A DNA stretch of 64,000 bases from Apostichopus japonicus (taxonomy: Eukaryota > Echinodermata > Holothuroidea > Aspidochirotida > Stichopodidae). This document shows positions 4,561 to 46,360 of the stretch, in pieces. How positions within the stretch are numbered: the first letter of the stretch is position 1; the number at the start of each line of letters is the position of its first letter. The notes beneath the pieces are model-generated. The model was not told the origin of the DNA. It did no database searches and worked only from the letters and a program-made list of their open reading frames with translations. The position numbers were made by a program, and so were the translations under genes. The stretch covers positions 7,625,001 to 7,689,000 of the forward strand of contig NC_092570.1 in assembly GCF_037975245.1 (NCBI RefSeq), given 5' to 3'.

Positions 4561-7264
4561 TTTATGTTTCTCTTCTTCTTTCAATATATTGGTGCAATGT
4601 TATCTTCTTAATCATTCTTTTGCCAGTTTCTATATTATTCTATTATCCATCTAGATTCCACCATCATGCTAAACCATGTTGATATTAACTGCACAAAATG
4701 AGCTACGTTTTTTTTTAATAATGAAAATATAACGGTCTTGAAACAGAGGCTTACATAGCTCAAAGATGGATTTTGATCCTCCCTGTATCATTTTTAATGC
4801 ACTATGTAAGAGTTAGGGGGCCTGATGTTTTACTCTTAAAATGTTCTTCTTCAGAGGCAAACTCAGGATCTACTTTATCTCTCATTTTTTATTCAGTTTT
4901 CGTTTCCATAAACCCTCGCTTTTATATGCCTGTCATAATAGTAAGCTCTGTCAGCTGTGATGTAAGCAGTTTTAAGGAATTATATTTACTTCCCCCAGTT
5001 ATCCCTCTTTCCTCCCCAGTCCCCCCACCCACCAGTTTCCCTTGACCCACAAGAAAGCACTTGGTATGAAAGATGGTAGCAATTCATCTGTTCCATTTCA
5101 TATACCTGGTTTTAATTTTCACCAGGTTTGCTCTAGTAGCTAGTGAAGTGGATCATGCGTATGCTATCAAACTTTCCTTTTCTCCCAATAACAACATGTA
5201 TCCTGATTCTTATATGCAAAGTAGGTTAAAATGTTGGTGTACAATTGTTTGTATGATAAGAGATGTTAGTAGCTACAAGTAGGCTAACTGTTATTGGTGT
5301 TGTATTGGTGCTGTATGGTGTTGCAATGTGCAAAATGGAAGCTTAGTATTACTCTCACTAATTTCATACCAAAATTTGGAAAAAGCAACTCATTCAAGCT
5401 CAGTAAATACCTTTGAAATGCACCTTGAAGTTCAGTCTGGCAATGTAGGTGCCTTTTTACTTTTTCTTTTCTTGTTTTTTGACAAATTTTGGCAAATTTC
5501 ATTGCCTTATTTATTAAATGTAGGAATTTCAATTGTCAGCTTGGTTTCGTCACAAGCACAAGAATTGTCCATTCTGTTATATATACATGTATAAGTTGAC
5601 ATCGTCTTTTATCTTTTTGAACAGTTACTGACTGTTAGTACTAATTATTTTCTACAGTACTTAATGACTACAGGATGATTTAATGACTGTATTATCTTAA
5701 AAAATAGCTGGTGGTGTCATAAAAGAGGAGGTTGGCCAAGGGGAGACATGGATAGGGGAAGTTCCCCCAAACTGTTCAGCATCCCCAAATGAAAGTAGCA
5801 ATGTTATAAAAAAAAACTGTTGCCAGCGAGATAAACAATAGTTTTACCTCTAAAGGCTCTTATTTACTCTTGTCTACCTCCAAAGTTCTGCTGAAATAAA
5901 TTCTTGAAATTAAGAAAAATAGCAAGACTTTAGGTGACTCTTTCACCTTGACCCCCTCACCAGAGGTCCGATGGCTGGCCCCCAAACCCCCTGCAGACAT
6001 GGTTGTCGGTCTTCGCTACTACTGGTGCCTCCGGCGAACCAGTTTGTGTAACCCCATCCCCACTGCCAAATGTTTTGATTAGCCCCCTCCCCACTGCCAA
6101 ATGGTGGTCGACACCACTGTGAATAATGCCTTGCATAGACTACACCTTGGAGATTTGTACGTTTTACGTTTTGTATCCCAATCCGATCCCAGGGGATTCA
6201 TTTACAGATCATTTCCGCTTCTAAGTGTACCTTTCTGTGATAGTGTTGATTACTGCAACAAATAAGTAATAGCAACGCTATGATAGATGAACCATTGGGA
6301 AGCACTATTCCTCTCATTAGAATCAGAAGATGATATTTTCACTGTAGCACTATCAGTTCGAGTTCAAGCAAGAATTGGTAGGTGAACACTGCCAGCATAG
6401 CCTGTTACTGTAGGATTTAGATTGGACTAAAGATTTATGAAAAAAATGTTCAATGGTCAAACACCCCACCCCCCCCCCCACCCTACCCCACACACACATC
6501 TCTCAATGTCAGGTATCAATTAAAAAAGAACTATTTTTTAAAGTTTGAAAAATGTGAATAATTTGATTGTAATGAATGAATATGATGTCATGTAATCTTA
6601 ACTCCGGTTTGTTCCTCTATCTTTGAATTTTTTCTGTTCTTTCTGTAAATTTCCGCTGAATGGTCATAACACTTAGAATATGGGAAGTGTGCCAGAGTTG
6701 GACACCACCATTCCCCTCCATTTTCCCCTCCCCTCTAAACCTTCACTCGAACAATAACAAGCATTGTGTACTGTTATCATCATCAAGCCCTCTGTGGGGA
6801 GATCCATGCCTGGACGATTTGGAGTAGATCCAGTGTTTGAAAAGAGAGTAGAGATGCGGCTCTTTCGTCGTGTAAGCCGACGTCATGTATTGAGGGGGCG
6901 GAAGGGGGGAGGGAGGTTCCTCTCTCCAAAAAAATGAGTTTTTGAAGTGAAATAGAACATTAGGCTGAGGTATATCATCATTTAGGGTATAAATGAGGTA
7001 TAAGTAGGTCTACATTGCTAATAACTACTTTTAAAGGCGGTTGAAAAAGAGGATGTATACTCCTTCCCCACCCCCTCCCTCCCCACCCCCGCTTGATCTC
7101 CGGCCTGCCTCACGACACGCTGAATTTAATTGTTAATTAAATGAAGAAGCGGAGATGAAAAGTTTACTTCTTCAATGCTGCCCTCATTCAAGTCCCGATT
7201 TTGTCCGTACAGCGCTTTCGTACCACTGACGTATATAAACACTAAATTTGAGTTCACTTTTCAA
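4377..7264. other. ACOT9 3' UTR and downstream DNA, no gene seen
   Basis: Contains the rest of the ACOT9 3' end, with an AATAAA at 5895 as one possible distal poly(A) signal. It also holds several C-rich patches (about 4985-5045, 6465-6500, 7065-7100). ORFs here are short, overlap on both strands and resemble nothing I know. Confidence 0.5.
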
Positions 7265-8362: not shown

Positions 8363-9794
8363 GCGACGTTGAAAGGACTGGATTGTCAACGAGCAATGAC
8401 CACATTGTTTTTGGCAAAATTTGTAAAACGAAATCCTTTATTTATTTTTCAATTTGCCCGATTTTTCGGGGAAATCGTTTGTTGGCCGATATGACGATGG
8501 ATCCTCGCAGTTTAAATTAACAATGCTACAAAATAACATCTTGGATAAATAAGAGGTTTAATAATCATCCAAATAATTAAATATAACACAAAGCAAATAG
8601 ACTAGTACTAAAATAGACTAGTACTCTTCTGATCGTGTAAATTAAACATTCGTCTTCCTGCTAAGAGATTTAATATTTTATACCCGCGTAACAAGATTTA
8701 ATGAGAGGGAATATCTTTATCAGTGACGAAAATCTGTGTTGAAAAATGATAAATTATTCATTTAAAAGACATGTGTGTTAATTGAACAATACGATGGCTC
8801 GAAATCCGCTAGGCTATAAATGTTGTTGTTTTAATGTTACATCTATGCTACAGGAGTGAAACCACCAGAGTTTAGGTTAGTATGCGCAGCTAAGACTGTT
8901 CTGCAATCGTCGTGTGGGAGGGGTCTTAGGGAAGGTCCCCCTTCCCCTCATTTTGGTAACTATTTGATGGTGCTTCGAGGCAAAACATTGTGCAGATTTT
9001 GAAACATATTGAAGAATTTTCAACTGCTCAGGTTGTATAGCCTATACTTTAGGTCTACATGTAATGTATATATCTATGCATTGTATAATCAAGGCGTTTG
9101 ATAGGGTGTGTGTGTGTTGTGTGAGTTTGTGTGTATTAATTTGCCTGTATTACAAGGATTATCTCTCGTATCTTTGAGAGAATTGCGGTTACAAGCCGGT
9201 TGCTATGGTGACAAAGACTGAACAAATTGCAGTCTGTGAACTTCTTCACCTTTAAGCGTACAACCGACACGTGTATAGCTTATCGAAGGATCGTCGGTAT
9301 AGTGACGTATAGTCTAAAATGGCCTTCTGTATAGCAAGTATTGTCTGAACCAGGGAGCAGGACCTACCTGAACAGATAGGCGGTATAACATAATGAGTTC
9401 GACTCGACTGATCTAGTGATAATGGCACCATATACACTGATATATACATATACATATATGCCACATATGATCACATTACCAGGTTCGATATATCGAACAA
9501 TACTGAGAATAACCTAGCGAAATACGTTGCTCCCAGTGACCTCCCACCCCCCCCCCCGTCCCCCACATCCCCTTCCATTTTCCCTTCCCCACAGACGTAT
9601 TTGACTCTCCTTGTTCTTTGATGCAGGTGTAACTACTTATCTATCTAAAATCATTTAGAGATCATTTAGTTTACAGTTAGTATTCAGCTTGCCTTTATCT
9701 TTGTATGTTTCTCAAGTACCTTCATTCGGTTGCGAAATATACTTTTCGCAACACTGAAAGACACTCGACAATGCGGCATTTCATCGTATCTAGA

Positions 9795-9795
<1 letters not shown>
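8361..9795. other. Intergenic, no gene seen
   Basis: No coding exon, RNA gene or mobile element end was recognised. There is a GT-rich stretch around 9107-9135 and a poly-C tract at 9548-9557. Confidence 0.45.

Positions 9796-9875
<80 letters not shown>
9796..9875. repeat. (AT)n microsatellite
   Basis: About 80 bp of pure AT dinucleotide. It lies downstream of the minus-strand hammerhead-like motif, as (AT)n also follows the other two copies. Confidence 0.95.
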
Positions 9876-9880
<5 letters not shown>

Positions 9881-9981
9881 ACGAAAATCCACGTTTACTC
9901 CAAAAGAAAATATTATTAGAGAAAACCAGAGAAATAAGATATGACTCATAATTGACAAATAAGGAGTAAGTTTTAGAAAAT

Positions 9982-10024
9982 ATATTGGAATTTTCGGTCC
10001 CCCTGGGACCTTCGTCAGCAATAC
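9982..10024 (-). ncRNA. Hammerhead-ribozyme-like motif, copy A
   Basis: Inverted copy of the motif described at 10050-10092, with an identical core. It lies head-to-head with copy B, so the two form a large imperfect palindrome around 10035. Confidence 0.6.
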
Positions 10025-10049
10025 TCGGCAGTCGAATGAGAAGTGCCGA

Positions 10050-10092
10050 GTATTGCTGACGAAGGTCCCAGGGGGACCGAAAATTCCAATAT
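10050..10092 (+). ncRNA. Hammerhead-ribozyme-like motif, copy B
   Basis: Read as a type I hammerhead. The stem I 5' strand GTATTG is followed by the core CTGACGA (10056-10062), which fits CUGANGA. Stem II is GGTCCC/GGGACC with loop AGG. GAAA follows at 10079-10082, then a minimal AATT stem III, then UH = TC with predicted cleavage after C10086. The stem I 3' strand CAATAT pairs with GTATTG by five Watson-Crick pairs and one G-U. One extra A sits between the core A9 and stem II; as I recall, the CChMVd plus-strand hammerhead has an extra A at the same place. Stem III has no real loop, so cleavage may need a dimer through the self-complementary AATT, as proposed for short-stem-III hammerheads of Penelope-like elements and retrozymes. 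Activity is inferred, not shown. Confidence 0.65.
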
Positions 10093-10164
10093 ATTTTCTA
10101 AAACTTACTCCTTATTTGTCAATTATATGAGTCATATCTTATTTCTCTGGTTTTCTCTAATAAT

Positions 10165-10245
<81 letters not shown>

Positions 10246-10368
10246 TCTGGTACATCGTGCTGGATGTATGTCTCCGTCGATCGTTGCCAGAATAAATGAC
10301 CTTCATAATACTATATTCATTCGACTGCCGAGTATTGCTGACGAAGGTCCCAGGGGGACCGAAAATTC
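10087..10368 (+). repeat. Retrozyme-like tandem unit between two hammerhead motifs
   Basis: The 282 bp from the predicted cleavage site of copy B to that of copy C. Order: a conserved 3' flank of the ribozyme (to about 10160), (AT)n at about 10169-10241, then a unique block at 10242-10320 starting GCATCTGGTACATCGTGCTG, then the next ribozyme. Self-cleavage at both motifs would release a 282-nt RNA. Size and layout resemble metazoan retrozymes, described as small tandem repeats with type I hammerheads. No coding capacity except repeat translation. Confidence 0.55.
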
Positions 10369-10374
10369 CAATAT
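10332..10374 (+). ncRNA. Hammerhead-ribozyme-like motif, copy C
   Basis: Same 43-nt motif as copy B with no change in the core: CTGACGA at 10338-10344, GAAA at 10361-10364, predicted cleavage after C10368. It lies in direct orientation 282 bp downstream of copy B, so the two bound one tandem unit. Confidence 0.65.
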
Positions 10375-10438
10375 ATTTTCTAAAACTTACTCCTTATTTG
10401 TCAATTATGAGTCATATCATATTTCTCTGGTTTTCTCT

Positions 10439-10442
<4 letters not shown>

Positions 10443-10535
<93 letters not shown>
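10443..10535. repeat. (AT)n microsatellite after ribozyme copy C
   Basis: About 92 bp of pure AT that joins the flank of hammerhead copy C directly to a SINE beginning GGTTTCGAACCTCTGG. It marks a junction between two repeat families. Confidence 0.95.
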
Positions 10536-10537
<2 letters not shown>

Positions 10538-10628
10538 TTTCGAACCTCTGGACATACAATCAGCGTCCATAGCCTAGGGTGTCCGCGTACAGAGCGGGAG
10601 GCCCGTGGTTCGAATCCCGGTGGAGGCT
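10536..10628 (+). repeat. tRNA-derived SINE copy with damaged A box
   Basis: Matches the SINE at 10903-11001. The tRNA-like part runs about 10562-10628 but has lost seven bases (TGGTTAG) from the D arm, breaking the A box. The B box GGTTCGAATCC is intact. Followed by TTTTTT. Confidence 0.8.
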
Positions 10629-10738
10629 GAAAGTTTTTTCACTGTTCTTGATTTTCCAACTCATTACGATTTTCATTTATATATATTCATTTGCCTTTGT
10701 CGTTTACCTCCATTGCATTAACATAAAGTCTGATCAAA

Positions 10739-11047
10739 GTATCTCTTTCGAGATCCGGCTTTAGGAATCACAAATGATTTTCGAGTTGGATAGCATCATG
10801 TTTGATCTCTAGAGTAGGGCAAAATATGTCACCAAAAACAGAACTAGTATTGTTCGATATAGGTGACAAACGCCTGCAGTGGAATTACGATCTTCCTTAC
10901 CGGTTTCGAACCTCTGGACATACAATCAGCGTCCATAGCCTAGTGGTTAGGGTGTCCGCGTACAGAGCGGGAGGCCCGTGGTTCGAATCCCGGTGGAGGC
11001 TGAAAGTTTTTTCACTGTTCTTGATTTTCCAACTCATTACGATTTTC

Positions 11048-11099
<52 letters not shown>

Positions 11100-11176
11100 G
11101 CATCTGGTATATTGTGCTGGATGTATGTCTCCGTCGATCGTTGCCAGAATAAATGACCTTCATAATACTATATTCA
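10739..11176 (+). repeat. tRNA-derived SINE composite, near-complete copy
   Basis: Order: a 5' block (10739-10927) also present at 42757-42950; a 74-nt tRNA-like body (10928-11001); a TTTTTT Pol III terminator about 6 nt downstream; a short A/T-rich linker; (AT)n at 11049-11088; and the block GCATCTGGTATATTGTGCTG (11099-11176), also found inside the hammerhead tandem unit. In the tRNA-like body the A box TAGCCTAGTGG and B box GGTTCGAATCC fit the Pol III consensus exactly. The acceptor ends pair 6 of 7, and the anticodon stem is 5 bp with a 7-nt loop holding ACA after T33. T-stem mismatches argue against a working tRNA. I read it as a SINE. Confidence 0.75.
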
Positions 11177-17457: not shown

Positions 17458-17712
17458 CACACTGTTAAAAAAATTTCTGTAAATTAACAGAAAACGATTG
17501 GAAAAAAAGTTTCCAATCGTTTCCTGTTATTTTTACAGACAATCTGTAAAAAGGAATTAACTGGAAAATAATGTTTTCTTTTTACATAGTTTTCCAGTTA
17601 AAATTTTTACAAGAATAATCTGTTAAATAGAATAACATAAAAATTCTGTTTTATTTAGCATTTTTCTCATGTATATTTAACTGAATTCTTCTGATAAAAT
17701 TACAATTTATTC

Positions 17713-18205
17713 CTGTTTGTTTACAGACAGTTTTGTTGTGTTTTACTACCAAATTCTGTCTTTTTACAAGTTTTCGATGTTAATTTACCAAATCGTCTGA
17801 TAAAATTTCAATTTTTGTCTGTTTTTTTACAGACGGTTTTACTTCTAAATTCTGTCTTTTTACAAGTTTTCGATGTTAATTTACCAAATCGTCTGATAAA
17901 ATTACAATTTTTGTCTGTTTTTTTGCAGACGGTTTTACTTCTAAATTCTGTCTTTTTACAAGTTTTCGATGTTAATTTACCAAATCGTCTGATAAAATTA
18001 CAATTTTTGTCTGTTTTTTGGCAGACGGTTTTACTCCTAAATTCTGTCTTTTTTACAGGATTTTGATGTTAATCGTTCAGTCAATTTGCTTAAATCTTCT
18101 GATAAAATTCAAATTTATGTTTTTTTTTACAGACACTTTTAACGTGTTTGTCTACCAAATCTGTCCTTTAACAATTTTTTTATGTGAATTATTAATGGTT
18201 TATCA
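17713..18205 (+). repeat. Subterminal tandem repeat, about 96-bp unit, ~4-5 copies
   Basis: The phrase CTGTTTTTTTACAGACGG recurs at about 17713, 17819, 17915, 18011 and 18112 (steps of 106, 96, 96, about 100 bp). Each unit also has AAATTCTGTCTTTTTACA and CGATGTTAATTTACC. Such tandem subterminal repeats are typical of CACTA-type ends, where transposase binds. Confidence 0.85.
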
Positions 18206-25285: not shown

Positions 25286-26953
25286 AGGGCTACTGTTAGC
25301 GAGGATCTCCAGGAAGACTTGTTGTCTGGTATAGACAAGGCCCCCCCCCCCTCATAGTAAAACGATAGCTTGGGTTCGAATCTCTCCGTTGGTGAGCTCT
25401 GGACAGCGGTAGCAGCGATGAAGAAGGGAAAGTCCCCGGTCCCGATGGCCTCCCTGCTGAGTTCTATCGGACCTTCTGGGAGGTTCTCGGTGGGGACTTT
25501 AGAGACGTGTTCGCTACCGCTTTCCAGTTGAATTACATGACCCAAACACAAAGGGCTGGAAATATTGTTCTCCTCCCAAAGTCGGGAGACCCTTTGGACC
25601 CTAATTGGCGTACAATAACGCTGTTAAATCTGGACTACAAAATCCTGGCCAAAGCATTAGGAAATCGCTTAGCGGATGTGATGCCGGATATTGCAGGTCC
25701 TCTCCAGACTTGCGCTGTGCGAGTCCTTCGGATTGAACACAGTGTTTATTCGTTGGGTCTCGTTACTATATAAGGACGTCACGAGCATGGTCACTGTTAA
25801 CGGATTTACTTCTGGTTCCTTCCCGGTTCGAAGGGGAGTCCGTCAGGGTTGTCCCCTCTCCCCGTTGTTGTATGTTCTCTTCAGCGAAACGCTCAGTACC
25901 TCGCTGGACAGATGCTTGGGGTTTCGACCTTTCAATGTACCGGGTGTGGCTATAGTTAAATGCGTGCAATATGCCGATGACGTCACTTGTATTGTGTCGG
26001 ACCTGGTCTCCTTCAAGCCTTTATCGAAGGTTTTAGCCACCTTCCAAGAGGCTACTGGTGCCAGACTTAACAAGTCCAAGACCAAAGGGCTGCATTCAGG
26101 AAGTTGGCGCGGCCAATCCCTCCCGTTCGATGCTACTTGGTCAGATGTCATGATCAGGGTAATCGGCATCTGGCTAGGTTATGGTGCCCCGGAGGCCACC
26201 ACTTGGCCCGAGAAGGCTGATCAGGTGGAGGCAAGGCTCGACACATTCAATCGGAGGTGACTCTCCCTCCCTGGTAAGGTTACAGTTGTCAATCGTTTTA
26301 TTGTTCCTCTCCTTTGGTATCCTGGTACGGTGATCGCTGCACCAGATTATGCCTTGGTGCGATTGGAGAGGATCATTTTTTTTATTTCATTTGGGGAAAG
26401 TGCAAACCAAACCTTCTCAAAAGGACCGTTCTGTAAAAGACCCCCTTGAGCGGGTGGGCATGGTTTGGTCCACCTACCATCTTAACTGCGCTTTCTCCTT
26501 TTGAAAGGTTTTTTCGTTGCGTTGAGAATCCCTCGTTTGCCTTTTTTTGTTAGGTTCTGGGGTGGTTTTCATTTTCGCCACTACTGGCCCGGATCCTTTT
26601 CCAATAACCGGCCAAAGGCGACACGCCTTTCGGGGGTGTATACTCAGATTGGTGACTCACTTTGTAGAATCAAAGAGGAGGTTGGGCCAGATGTTCTGCT
26701 GAACGTGGCCCCCTCGGCTTGCCAAACAGCCATCTCTCCAGATGTGTGGTGTTCTGTGTGTTGTAAGTCACTAGATAGCCGTCTCCGGGACTTGGCGAGG
26801 AGGATTGCACATGGGGTCCTCATCACTAACCATTTTCGCCTTGTCAGGTGGCGATTAGGTTATGGGATTTGTCCCTGTGTGGGCTGTAAAGCCATCAGGA
26901 CTATGCAACACCTTTTGCTGGAGTGTCCCTTTGTCCGGTTGGTGTGGAAATGA
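25286..26953 (+). pseudogene. Tx1/L1-like LINE reverse transcriptase fragment, dead (foldback copy 1)
   Basis: Several frames together give ELWTAVAAMKKGKSP and PDGLPAEFYRTFWEVLGGDF, then GNIVLLPKSGDP and LLNLDYKILAKALGNRLADV. After a gap come FIRWVSLLYKDVTS, RRGVRQGCPLSPLLYVLF and CVQYADDVTCIV, then a C-terminal zinc-binding region (WRLGYGICPC-GC-T-QHLLLECP, zf-RVT type). A one-base loss sits in KSPGPDG. The stretch between LQTC and the RWVSLLY region is missing, and with it catalytic motif A (the first metal-binding Asp). YADD (motif C) is kept. No endonuclease is seen. The same frameshift and deletion occur in copy 2, so the fragment was already dead before it spread. Confidence 0.88.
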
Positions 26954-42756: not shown

Positions 42757-42974
42757 GTATCTCTTTCGAGATCCGGCTTTAGGAATCACAAATGAGTTCT
42801 GGTTGGTTAGCATCATGTTTGATCTCTATAGAGTAAGGCAAAATATGTCACCAAAAACAGAACTATAGTATTGTTCGATACAGGTGACAAACGCCTTACA
42901 GTGGAATTACGACCTTCCTTACCGGTTTCGAACCTCTGGACATACAATCAGCGTCCATAGCCTAGTGGTTAGGT
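42757..42974 (+). repeat. SINE copy truncated into (AT)n
   Basis: Matches 10738-10950 closely, from GTATCTCTTTCGAGATCCGG to the A box CCTAGTGGTTAGG. The rest of the tRNA-like body is missing and (AT)n begins at 42976. The A/T-rich 3' linker TTTTCCAACTCATTAC resumes at 43029 after the microsatellite. Confidence 0.88.
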
Positions 42975-42975
42975 C

Positions 42976-43032
<57 letters not shown>

Positions 43033-43092
43033 CCAACTCATTACTATTTTCATTTATATATTCATTTTCATTTATTTATATATATATATTTC

Positions 43093-44754: not shown

Positions 44755-46360
44755 ACTGTTAGCGAGGATCTCCAGGAAGACTTGTTGTCTGGTATAGCCA
44801 AGGCCCCCCCCCCCCCTCATAGTAAAACGATAGCTTGGGTTCGAATCCCTCCGTTGGTGAGCTCTGGACAGCGGTAGCAGCGATGAAGAAGGGAAAGCCC
44901 CCGGTCCCGATGGCCTCCCTGCTGAGTTCTATAGGACCTTCTGGGAGGTTCTCGGTGGGGACTTTAGAGACATGTTCGCTACCGCTTTCCAATTGAATTA
45001 CATGAGCCAAACACAGAGGGCTGGAAATATTGTTCTCCTCCCAAAGTCGGGAGACCCTTTAGACCCTAATAGGTGTGCAATAACGCTGTTAAATCGGAAC
45101 TACAAAATCCTGGCCAAAGCATTAGGAAATCGCTTAGCGGATGTGATGCCGGATATTGTAGGTCCTCTCTAGACTTGCGCTGTGCGAGTCCTTCGGATTG
45201 AACTCGAATTTACTTAACGAATTTAATTAACGAATTTACTTCTGGTCCCTTCCCGGTTCGAAGGGGAGTCCGTCAGGTTTGTCCCCTCTCCCCGTTGTTG
45301 TATGTTCTCTTCAGCGAAACGCTCAGTACCTCGCTGGACAGATGCTTGGGATTTCGGCCTTTCAATGTACCGGGTGGGGCTAGAGTTAAATGCGTGCAAT
45401 ATGCCGATGACGTCACTTGTATTGTGTCGGACCTCGTCTCCTTCAAGCCTTCATCGAAGGTTTTGGCCACCTTCCAAGAGGCTTCTGGTGCCAGACTTAA
45501 CAAGTCCAAGACCAAAGGGCTGCGTTCAGGAGGTTGGCGTGGCCAATCCCTCCCGTTCGATGCTACTTGGTCGGATGTCATGATCAGGGTAATCGGTATC
45601 TGGCTAGGTTATGGTGCCCCGGAGGCCACCACTTGGGCCGAGAAGGCTGATCAGGTGGAGGCAAGGCTCAACACATTCAATCGGAGGTGACTCTCCTTCC
45701 CTGGGAAGGTAAGTTGTCAATCGTTTTATTGTTCTTCTCCGTTGGTATCCTGGTACGGTGATCGCTGCACCAGATTATGCCTTGGTGCGATTGGAGTGGA
45801 TCATTTTTTATTTCATTAAGGGAAAGTGCAAACCAAACTTTCTCAAAAGGACCGTTCTGTAAAAGACCCCCTTGAGCGGGTGGGCATGGTTTGGTACACC
45901 TACCATCTTAACTGCGCTTTCTCCTTTTGAAAGGTTTTTTCGTTGCGTTTGAGAATCCCTTTGCCGTTTGCCTTTTTGTTAGGTTCTGGGGTGGTTTTCT
46001 TTTTCGCCACTACTGGCCCGGATCCTTTTCCAACAACCGGCTTCGGGGGTGTATACTAAGATTGGTGACTCACTTAATAGAATCAAAGAGGAGGGTGGGC
46101 CAGATGTTCTGCTGAACGTGGCCCCCTCGGCTTGCCAAACCATCATCTCTCCAGGTGTGTGGCAGTCTGTGTGTTGTAAGTCACTAGATAGCCGTCTCCT
46201 GGACTTGGCGAGGAGGATTGCACATGGGGTCCTCATCACTAACCATTTCGCCTAGTCAGGTGGCGATTAGGTTATGGGATTTGTCCCTGTAAGGGCTGTA
46301 AAGCCATCAGGACTATGCAATACCTTTTGCTGGAGTGTCCCTTTGTCCGGTTGGTGTGCC
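44755..46360 (+). pseudogene. Tx1/L1-like LINE reverse transcriptase fragment, dead (foldback copy 2)
   Basis: Same content and order as 25286-26953: PDGLPAEFYRTFWEVLGGDF, NYKILAKALGNRLADV, LLYVLFSETLSTSLDRCLGF, CVQYADDVTCIV and the C-terminal region (SACQTIISPGVW, RRIAHGVLITNHF). It shares the frameshift at KSPGPDG and the LQTC breakpoint of the motif A deletion. It has further losses: the RWVSLLYKDVTS segment is replaced by a short AATTTACTTAACGAATTT-like filler at about 45205-45240, and there is a stop after HFA at 46253-46255. Confidence 0.87.

Follow-up and report, generated by a model that had tools for sequence, protein, structure and literature searches.

The window, a stretch of 64,000 nucleotides of Apostichopus japonicus DNA on the contig that we call C10, carries three copies of a hammerhead-like motif (HHR), each lying in a pLTR remnant of a Penelope-like element (PLE). 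In order along the window, the features of the locus are as follows.

9873..10039, minus strand: pLTR A, its 3′ end leftward, with a PLE tail at 9911-9873
9982..10024, minus strand: HHR copy A, core 10018-9987, spanning stem I to stem I (pattern match)
10040..10164, plus strand: pLTR B, head to head with A, no tail, terminus CTCTAATAAT
10050..10092, plus strand: HHR copy B, predicted cut after C10086 (pattern match and MFE fold)
10165..10243, no strand: (TA)n flank of B (read from the sequence)
10241..10319, plus strand: host segment X, between B and C; its sole other match is 11098-11176
10317..10444, plus strand: pLTR C, 5′-truncated, no tail
10332..10374, plus strand: HHR copy C, predicted cut after C10368 (pattern match)
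10445..10535, no strand: (TA)n flank of C (read from the sequence)

The 43-nt motif has the same letters in all three copies and consists, in order, of GTATTG (stem I), CTGACGA (core), an extra A, GGTCCC, AGG and GGGACC (a 6-bp stem II and its loop), GAA, AATT, C17 and CAATAT (the other side of stem I). Copies B and C are contained in an 83-nt perfect direct repeat at an offset of 282 bp, and A and B form perfect inverted arms, each of 83 nt, that a 13-nt spacer separates. When the core and stem II were searched as a pattern with at most one mismatch, the window gave three matches and 100 dinucleotide-preserving shuffles gave none. A sequence-only reading of this DNA had proposed three hammerhead-like copies with identical cores, two direct at 282 bp and one inverted, with a 6-bp stem II, an extra A after A9, a stem III of AATT, a stem I of GTATTG and CAATAT and a cut site at C10086; the pattern search confirms the copies, the repeat arms confirm their arrangement, and the details of the motif are correct as it gave them.

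That reading had also pointed to a scan of the genome by pattern or by hammerhead model. Across the 671.6-Mb assembly, a 32-nt pattern with at most three mismatches matched at 270 + 257 (527) places and its reversed control at 0 + 0, whereas the Rfam hammerhead models, which were run on the window, were silent, with no match at the gathering score across the whole window and none even up to E = 10 in 9500-11100. The Rfam hammerhead models expect a stem III. By eye, no loop for tertiary contacts between stems I and II is visible in the motif.

Elsewhere in the window, a tRNA-Cys-like, SINE-looking repeat occupies 10536-10686 and 10902-11059 in two copies that are 95.6% alike, with pieces near 42757-43067. 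Frames at 25396-26260 and 45202-45690 look LINE-reverse-transcriptase-like by eye (GVRQ-CPLSPLLY, YADD), and an open frame at 17698-18066 is an in-frame tandem repeat of ~30 residues per unit.

The arms 9910-10039 and 10317-10446 are 99% alike, and the window copies A, B and C are family P remnants without an ORF (family P is described below). A and B are one head-to-head, extremely truncated insertion within a (TA)n tract; they stand back to back with only the short spacer between their arms, so this insertion lacks the ORF. C is a further 5′-truncated pLTR past 79 bp of host DNA, which it joins through about three shared bases (judged by eye). The 79-bp segment X has two genome matches, the site in the window and 11098-11176, 857 bp away, match counts for X being lower bounds where repeats occur. 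A PLE-free paralogue of (TA)n and X at 11048-11176 agrees with 10191-10319 at 96.9%; as X there follows (TA)n without a PLE, this suggests that the (TA)n predates the insertion.

The direct pair could also be read as a retrozyme, a non-coding 282-nt unit that B and C would cut out and that would be circularised and spread, and its length lies within the ~170-400 nt of the animal retrozyme RNAs described in PMC7229834. However, host DNA makes up 79 of the 282 bp and has that single other match in the genome, and a segment found at only two places means that the B-C unit is not a replicating family. The 282-bp spacing is accidental, because local host DNA separates B and C, and the tandem is two neighbouring pLTRs and not a spreading unit. 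The family P motif also adjoins PLE frames, and the retrozyme-like family of this genome differs in its core and lacks the extra A; we consider a retrozyme very unlikely here. Of the two layouts that had been suggested from the sequence, the Penelope-type terminal repeat is upheld by open reverse-transcriptase frames and a tail, and the retrozyme falls with the 79-bp host segment.

Family P as a Penelope-like element

We interpret the motifs as minimal type I hammerhead ribozymes, with predicted cleavage, in the pLTRs of an endonuclease-type PLE, family P, and put the probability of this interpretation at roughly 0.86. A full copy of family P has the order pLTR(HHR)-ORF-pLTR(HHR), with direct HHR spacings of 3145, 3146 and 3150 bp at loci L009, L031 and L034, respectively, and the motif flanks open reverse-transcriptase frames in pLTR position with a PLE-type tail (L009, L019, L031). 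At L009, an 817-aa frame that matches Pfam RVT_1 (E 9.6e-14) ends at 6513 and an HHR core begins at 6654 on the same strand; in the minus-strand copy of this locus the second direct HHR, 3145 bp upstream, reads into the ORF start, which lies in a different frame from the 817-aa frame. L031 has a single 1029-aa frame that extends from the HHR region past the first M, with 978 aa from that M on.

Many of the family P copies listed consist of a minus-strand and then a plus-strand motif, with cores 31 to 4858 bp apart in the fetched loci. The inverted cores enclose frames of 817 aa (twice, head to head) in L009 and of 836 and 728 aa in L019, and shorter ones of 488 and 440 aa in L012 and 522 aa in L020. 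L009 and L019 are head-to-head PLE pairs, with both reverse-transcriptase frames open, inside kilobase-long inverted repeats.

A DNA transposon with terminal inverted repeats, which the minus-then-plus layout could also indicate, was ruled out by the reverse-transcriptase frames inside and by the tail at one end.

In the window, A and B together fold into a single hairpin (-152.4 kcal/mol) in which both motifs would be hidden, a point against the ribozyme interpretation. A palindrome with perfect 83-bp arms might also be a foldback element or a microRNA-like hairpin gene. Rfam does return mir-3913 and mir-2001, both under the gathering score (71.2 of 100 and 37.2 of 74), and the widely varying distance between the arm cores of other copies, several of which enclose PLE frames, argues against a foldback element or hairpin gene, which we find scarcely credible. 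The reading as a PLE is followed below.

We assign family P to the endonuclease-type PLEs because its anatomy is that of the Adineta vaga Penelope elements and of the Anolis element PAc. Its protein gave no Pfam match to GIY-YIG up to E = 10, and GIY-YIG was assigned in P by alignment to the protein of the related family U (46% identity over residues 117-806 of P) and by reading the motif by eye; the proteins of families R, Q and U score 24.6, 24.1 and 22.6 bits, all reaching the Pfam cut-off of 22.6. A PDB sequence search returned no match up to E 0.01. As described for Pen2a and other A. vaga Penelope families, P has a single ORF, two direct pLTRs and an inverted one (PMC3846280). The A. vaga elements have a 31-bp tail on one inverted pLTR, and their pLTR extends over 12 codons, or 22 with the tail (PMC3846280); in P it covers the first 12 codons, or 25 with the tail (our own count), and the ends of P lie in (TA)n. 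Family P further resembles PAc, a Poseidon element of Anolis carolinensis, in its HHR at the pLTR-ORF junction and in AT-rich targets, but the ORF of PAc begins at stem II, upstream of the cut (PMC11167929), whereas the first in-frame AUG of P is 38 nt downstream of the predicted cut.

Tails and (TA)n at the element ends

The 75 family P hits form 29 clusters of at least two copies, together with 12 single copies. Both ends could be scored in 25 of the clusters; one more had an end cut off, and three had outer ends on the same strand. Wherever two outward inverted ends were scored, the tail was present on exactly one of them (25/25 clusters of family P and 6/6 pairs of family Q, or 31/31 together), but these loci were selected for looking like pairs, so the rule says nothing about single copies, of which six in family P have the tail and six have none. 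The L009 cluster (C1:335862-342231) is among the three with same-strand outer ends, a diverged fourth hit being outermost; its inverted ends at 335862 (tail) and 341653 (none) obey the rule and were left out of the count. Two loci, C10:9280994 and C10:9425648, may represent a single insertion that a segmental duplication has copied.

When the ends were recounted by genome coordinates, the 75 hits comprised 40 with a tail, 32 without, two that lacked a recognisable end and one that was cut off. Four of the 40 tailed hits read on into the ORF, as internal 5′ pLTRs, and were removed. Among the 68 ends scored, 66 abut (TA)n, taken as at least 10 nt of alternating TA within the first 40 nt (34/36 tailed and 32/32 tail-less); the other two, C1:5995015 and C1:6000431, have a flank in common and may be internal as well. 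The family Q ends inspected by eye have no (TA)n in the 25 nt examined.

The strict one-tail discordance suggests that each insertion uses each reverse-transcriptase start site once. The rule is a sharp constraint on how both target strands are primed. The tail has been described as optional on one inverted pLTR (PMC3846280) and, in the account of PAc, as the stretch between two internal reverse-transcriptase start sites, the start site observed in vitro being the same for both strands (PMC11167929).

Four families and a self-complementary stem III

Four PLE families in this genome have the motif, namely P and the following three.

Family Q, L089-L091: found by motif search; PLE frame of 795 aa in L089
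Family R, L070, L093 and L094: found by motif search; PLE
Family U, L079 and L080: found via protein homology to P (47%); core and stem II searched only afterwards

The family Q motif has 1964 + 1920 matches at up to three mismatches, and several of the 96 matches of family R carry stop-free frames of 933 to 983 aa. Protein identities are 46% for P-U, 38% for P-R, 39% for U-R, 46% for Q-R, 38% for Q-U and 35% for Q-P. A looser pattern (CTGANGAAG, gap, CGAAA, YC) gave 1512 + 1803 matches, compared with 77 + 70 for its reversed control, these counts (like those for a pattern with no extra A, below) including double matches of single sites via variable gaps; P, Q and R were the three main sequences among the first 100 places listed. 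A class of looser-pattern matches without stem II, CTGACGAAGTGGTCCGAAAGTTC (L071, L072), was set aside, as was L078. In family U (L079 and L080), the base preceding the predicted cut is U (AUAU-U), where P, Q and R have C.

We aligned 11 copies of the four families, hand-picked from the fetched loci with diverged ones preferred. The core elements of a hammerhead, CTGA-N-GAAG and C-GAAA, are invariant in all 11, the core having also formed part of the search pattern for P, Q and R. All 11 copies likewise have the extra A after A9, where a hammerhead has nothing between A9 and pair 10.1; the looser pattern demanded the extra A, C-GAAA and YC, so its presence in P, Q and R is partly by construction, and U alone, which was reached through protein homology, escapes this bias. 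The core insertion of a viroid hammerhead is reportedly an A at this very place. That hammerhead, with its one-nucleotide insertion, is described as weakly active (PMC11014351).

Stem III reads AATT in P, ACGT in Q, AGCT in R and ATAT in U; these make up the complete set of self-complementary 4-mers with A first and T last, each used by one family. Apart from YC (T or C at 16.1, C at 17), stems I and III played no part in the searches by which Q, R and U were found. One copy cannot close such a stem III, because a self-complementary 4-mer leaves no loop, whereas two copies can. In the proposed stems I, II and III, 90.4% of the 136 cells pair, compared with 25.4-41.6% for registers slid by one to three columns, and 40 cells are changed on both sides, a number that none of 500 shuffles reached (mean 13.0). 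The inner pair of stem III occurs as all four Watson-Crick types and is paired in 11/11 rows. Neither the pairs with a change on both sides (164 of 500) nor the further pair types (334 of 500) exceed the shuffles, and two of the five covariation measures therefore fail; as the rows within a family are kin, the independent evidence amounts to four families.

Covarying stems are what a putative dimer-acting ribozyme would predict, and the simplest reading of a self-complementary stem III in four families would be selection for a dimer. The view that a stem III reduced to AATT favours a dimer, put forward in the sequence-only reading, is supported by this comparison across families.

Folded without constraints, the motif on its own forms stems I and II in each of the four families, and a dimer with a shared stem III is lower in energy than the monomer in P (-21.0 against -13.4 kcal/mol), Q (-21.3 against -11.5 kcal/mol) and R (-16.1 against -8.4 kcal/mol) and no better in U (-4.4 against -4.6 kcal/mol). 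Since the dimer is two strands and the monomer one, only the pattern of these energies is informative; the best two-strand fold in P, Q and R is a longer duplex and not the dimer that shares stem III.

The motif might instead be kept as a DNA or RNA hairpin that serves the PLE protein for binding or priming, with the hammerhead itself inactive. Its position about 100-150 nt from both ends of the family P element would suit such a role, and the Anolis protein is described as needing sequence near the ORF start (PMC11167929). In the same account, HHR mutants left insertion unaffected and no reads ended at the cut, which speaks against a necessary role for the HHR. A mere hairpin would, however, leave unexplained the conserved CTGANGA and GAAA, the covarying stem I and the self-complementary stem III across four families, and we regard an inactive binding site as unlikely.

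A possible dimer mechanism and its known relatives

The sequence itself shows the position, strand, spacing, open frames, tails, targets and covariation of the motif; the mechanism is inferred. If the motifs act as ribozymes, two HHR copies, in one RNA or in two, would pair through AAUU to form a double hammerhead that cuts after C17. A cut would leave a 38-nt leader ahead of the first AUG, and cutting at both copies would release a ~3.15-kb unit RNA in which 38 nt separate the 5′ end from the ORF. By analogy with the Anolis PLE ribozyme, which cut only in the presence of the PLE protein (PMC11167929), the PLE protein may help two copies to meet; the Anolis protein is predicted to be a dimer (PMC11167929), which fits a protein that brings two HHR copies together. 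A tail at the 3′ end would require a template with the ORF start directly behind a pLTR, either a tandem transcript or a circle, and a single unit that had been cut and closed could give a circle with such a pLTR-to-ORF-start junction.

These steps can be joined in one model, in which the stem III 4-mer serves as a family password that allows a double hammerhead with its own kind only, the PLE protein acts as chaperone, the cut RNA is circular, and both reverse-transcriptase start sites are used once per insertion, one per target strand. We offer the joint model tentatively and think it doubtful as a whole. The role of the hammerhead in Penelope elements is called unknown in a review (PMC7761336). 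This one genome has four PLE families with long open frames and differing stem III 4-mers, alongside a canonical retrozyme-like family, and the dimer model and specificity between families could thereby be tested by two base changes.

The family P motif belongs to a known set of minimal PLE hammerheads, and dimer-acting ones have already been published (Cervera and de la Pena 2014; Lunse, Weinberg and Breaker 2017; cited in PMC7761336 and PMC6155905). As those reports are cited, the likeness extends to a type I HHR in the pLTRs, a stem III that is nearly absent and a proposed dimer. What the present data contribute is the comparison of four families within one genome and the one-tail rule. Hammerheads with a self-complementary stem III and a loop III, and core insertions at other positions, are described in PMC3088659; as far as that description goes, it includes neither an insertion after A9 nor several families from a single genome, unlike P, Q, R and U.

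Animal retrozymes have type I HHRs, as in P, with a weak stem III in amphibians, and are described as non-autonomous, with RNAs of ~170-400 nt, whereas P is a coding element (PMC7229834). The same source reports retrozymes co-existing with PLEs in one genome in mussels, other invertebrates and the axolotl. The retrozyme-like sequence here, family T (L084-L088), has CTGATGA, GTCC, CAAAA, GGAC, GAA, ACCGGT and C in succession, a canonical type I hammerhead with a stem III of ACCGGT and no extra A. A pattern with no extra A had 306 + 344 matches, compared with 157 + 90 for the control, and family T was recognised by eye as a repeated hammerhead-like sequence among the 100 places listed out of 650. 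In five loci hand-picked as close pairs, the tandem copies of L084-L086 are 327-341 bp apart, and spacings of 212, 239 and 114 bp also occur. In several family T copies, a tRNA-like box B (GGTTCGATTC) is seen by eye just upstream of the HHR.
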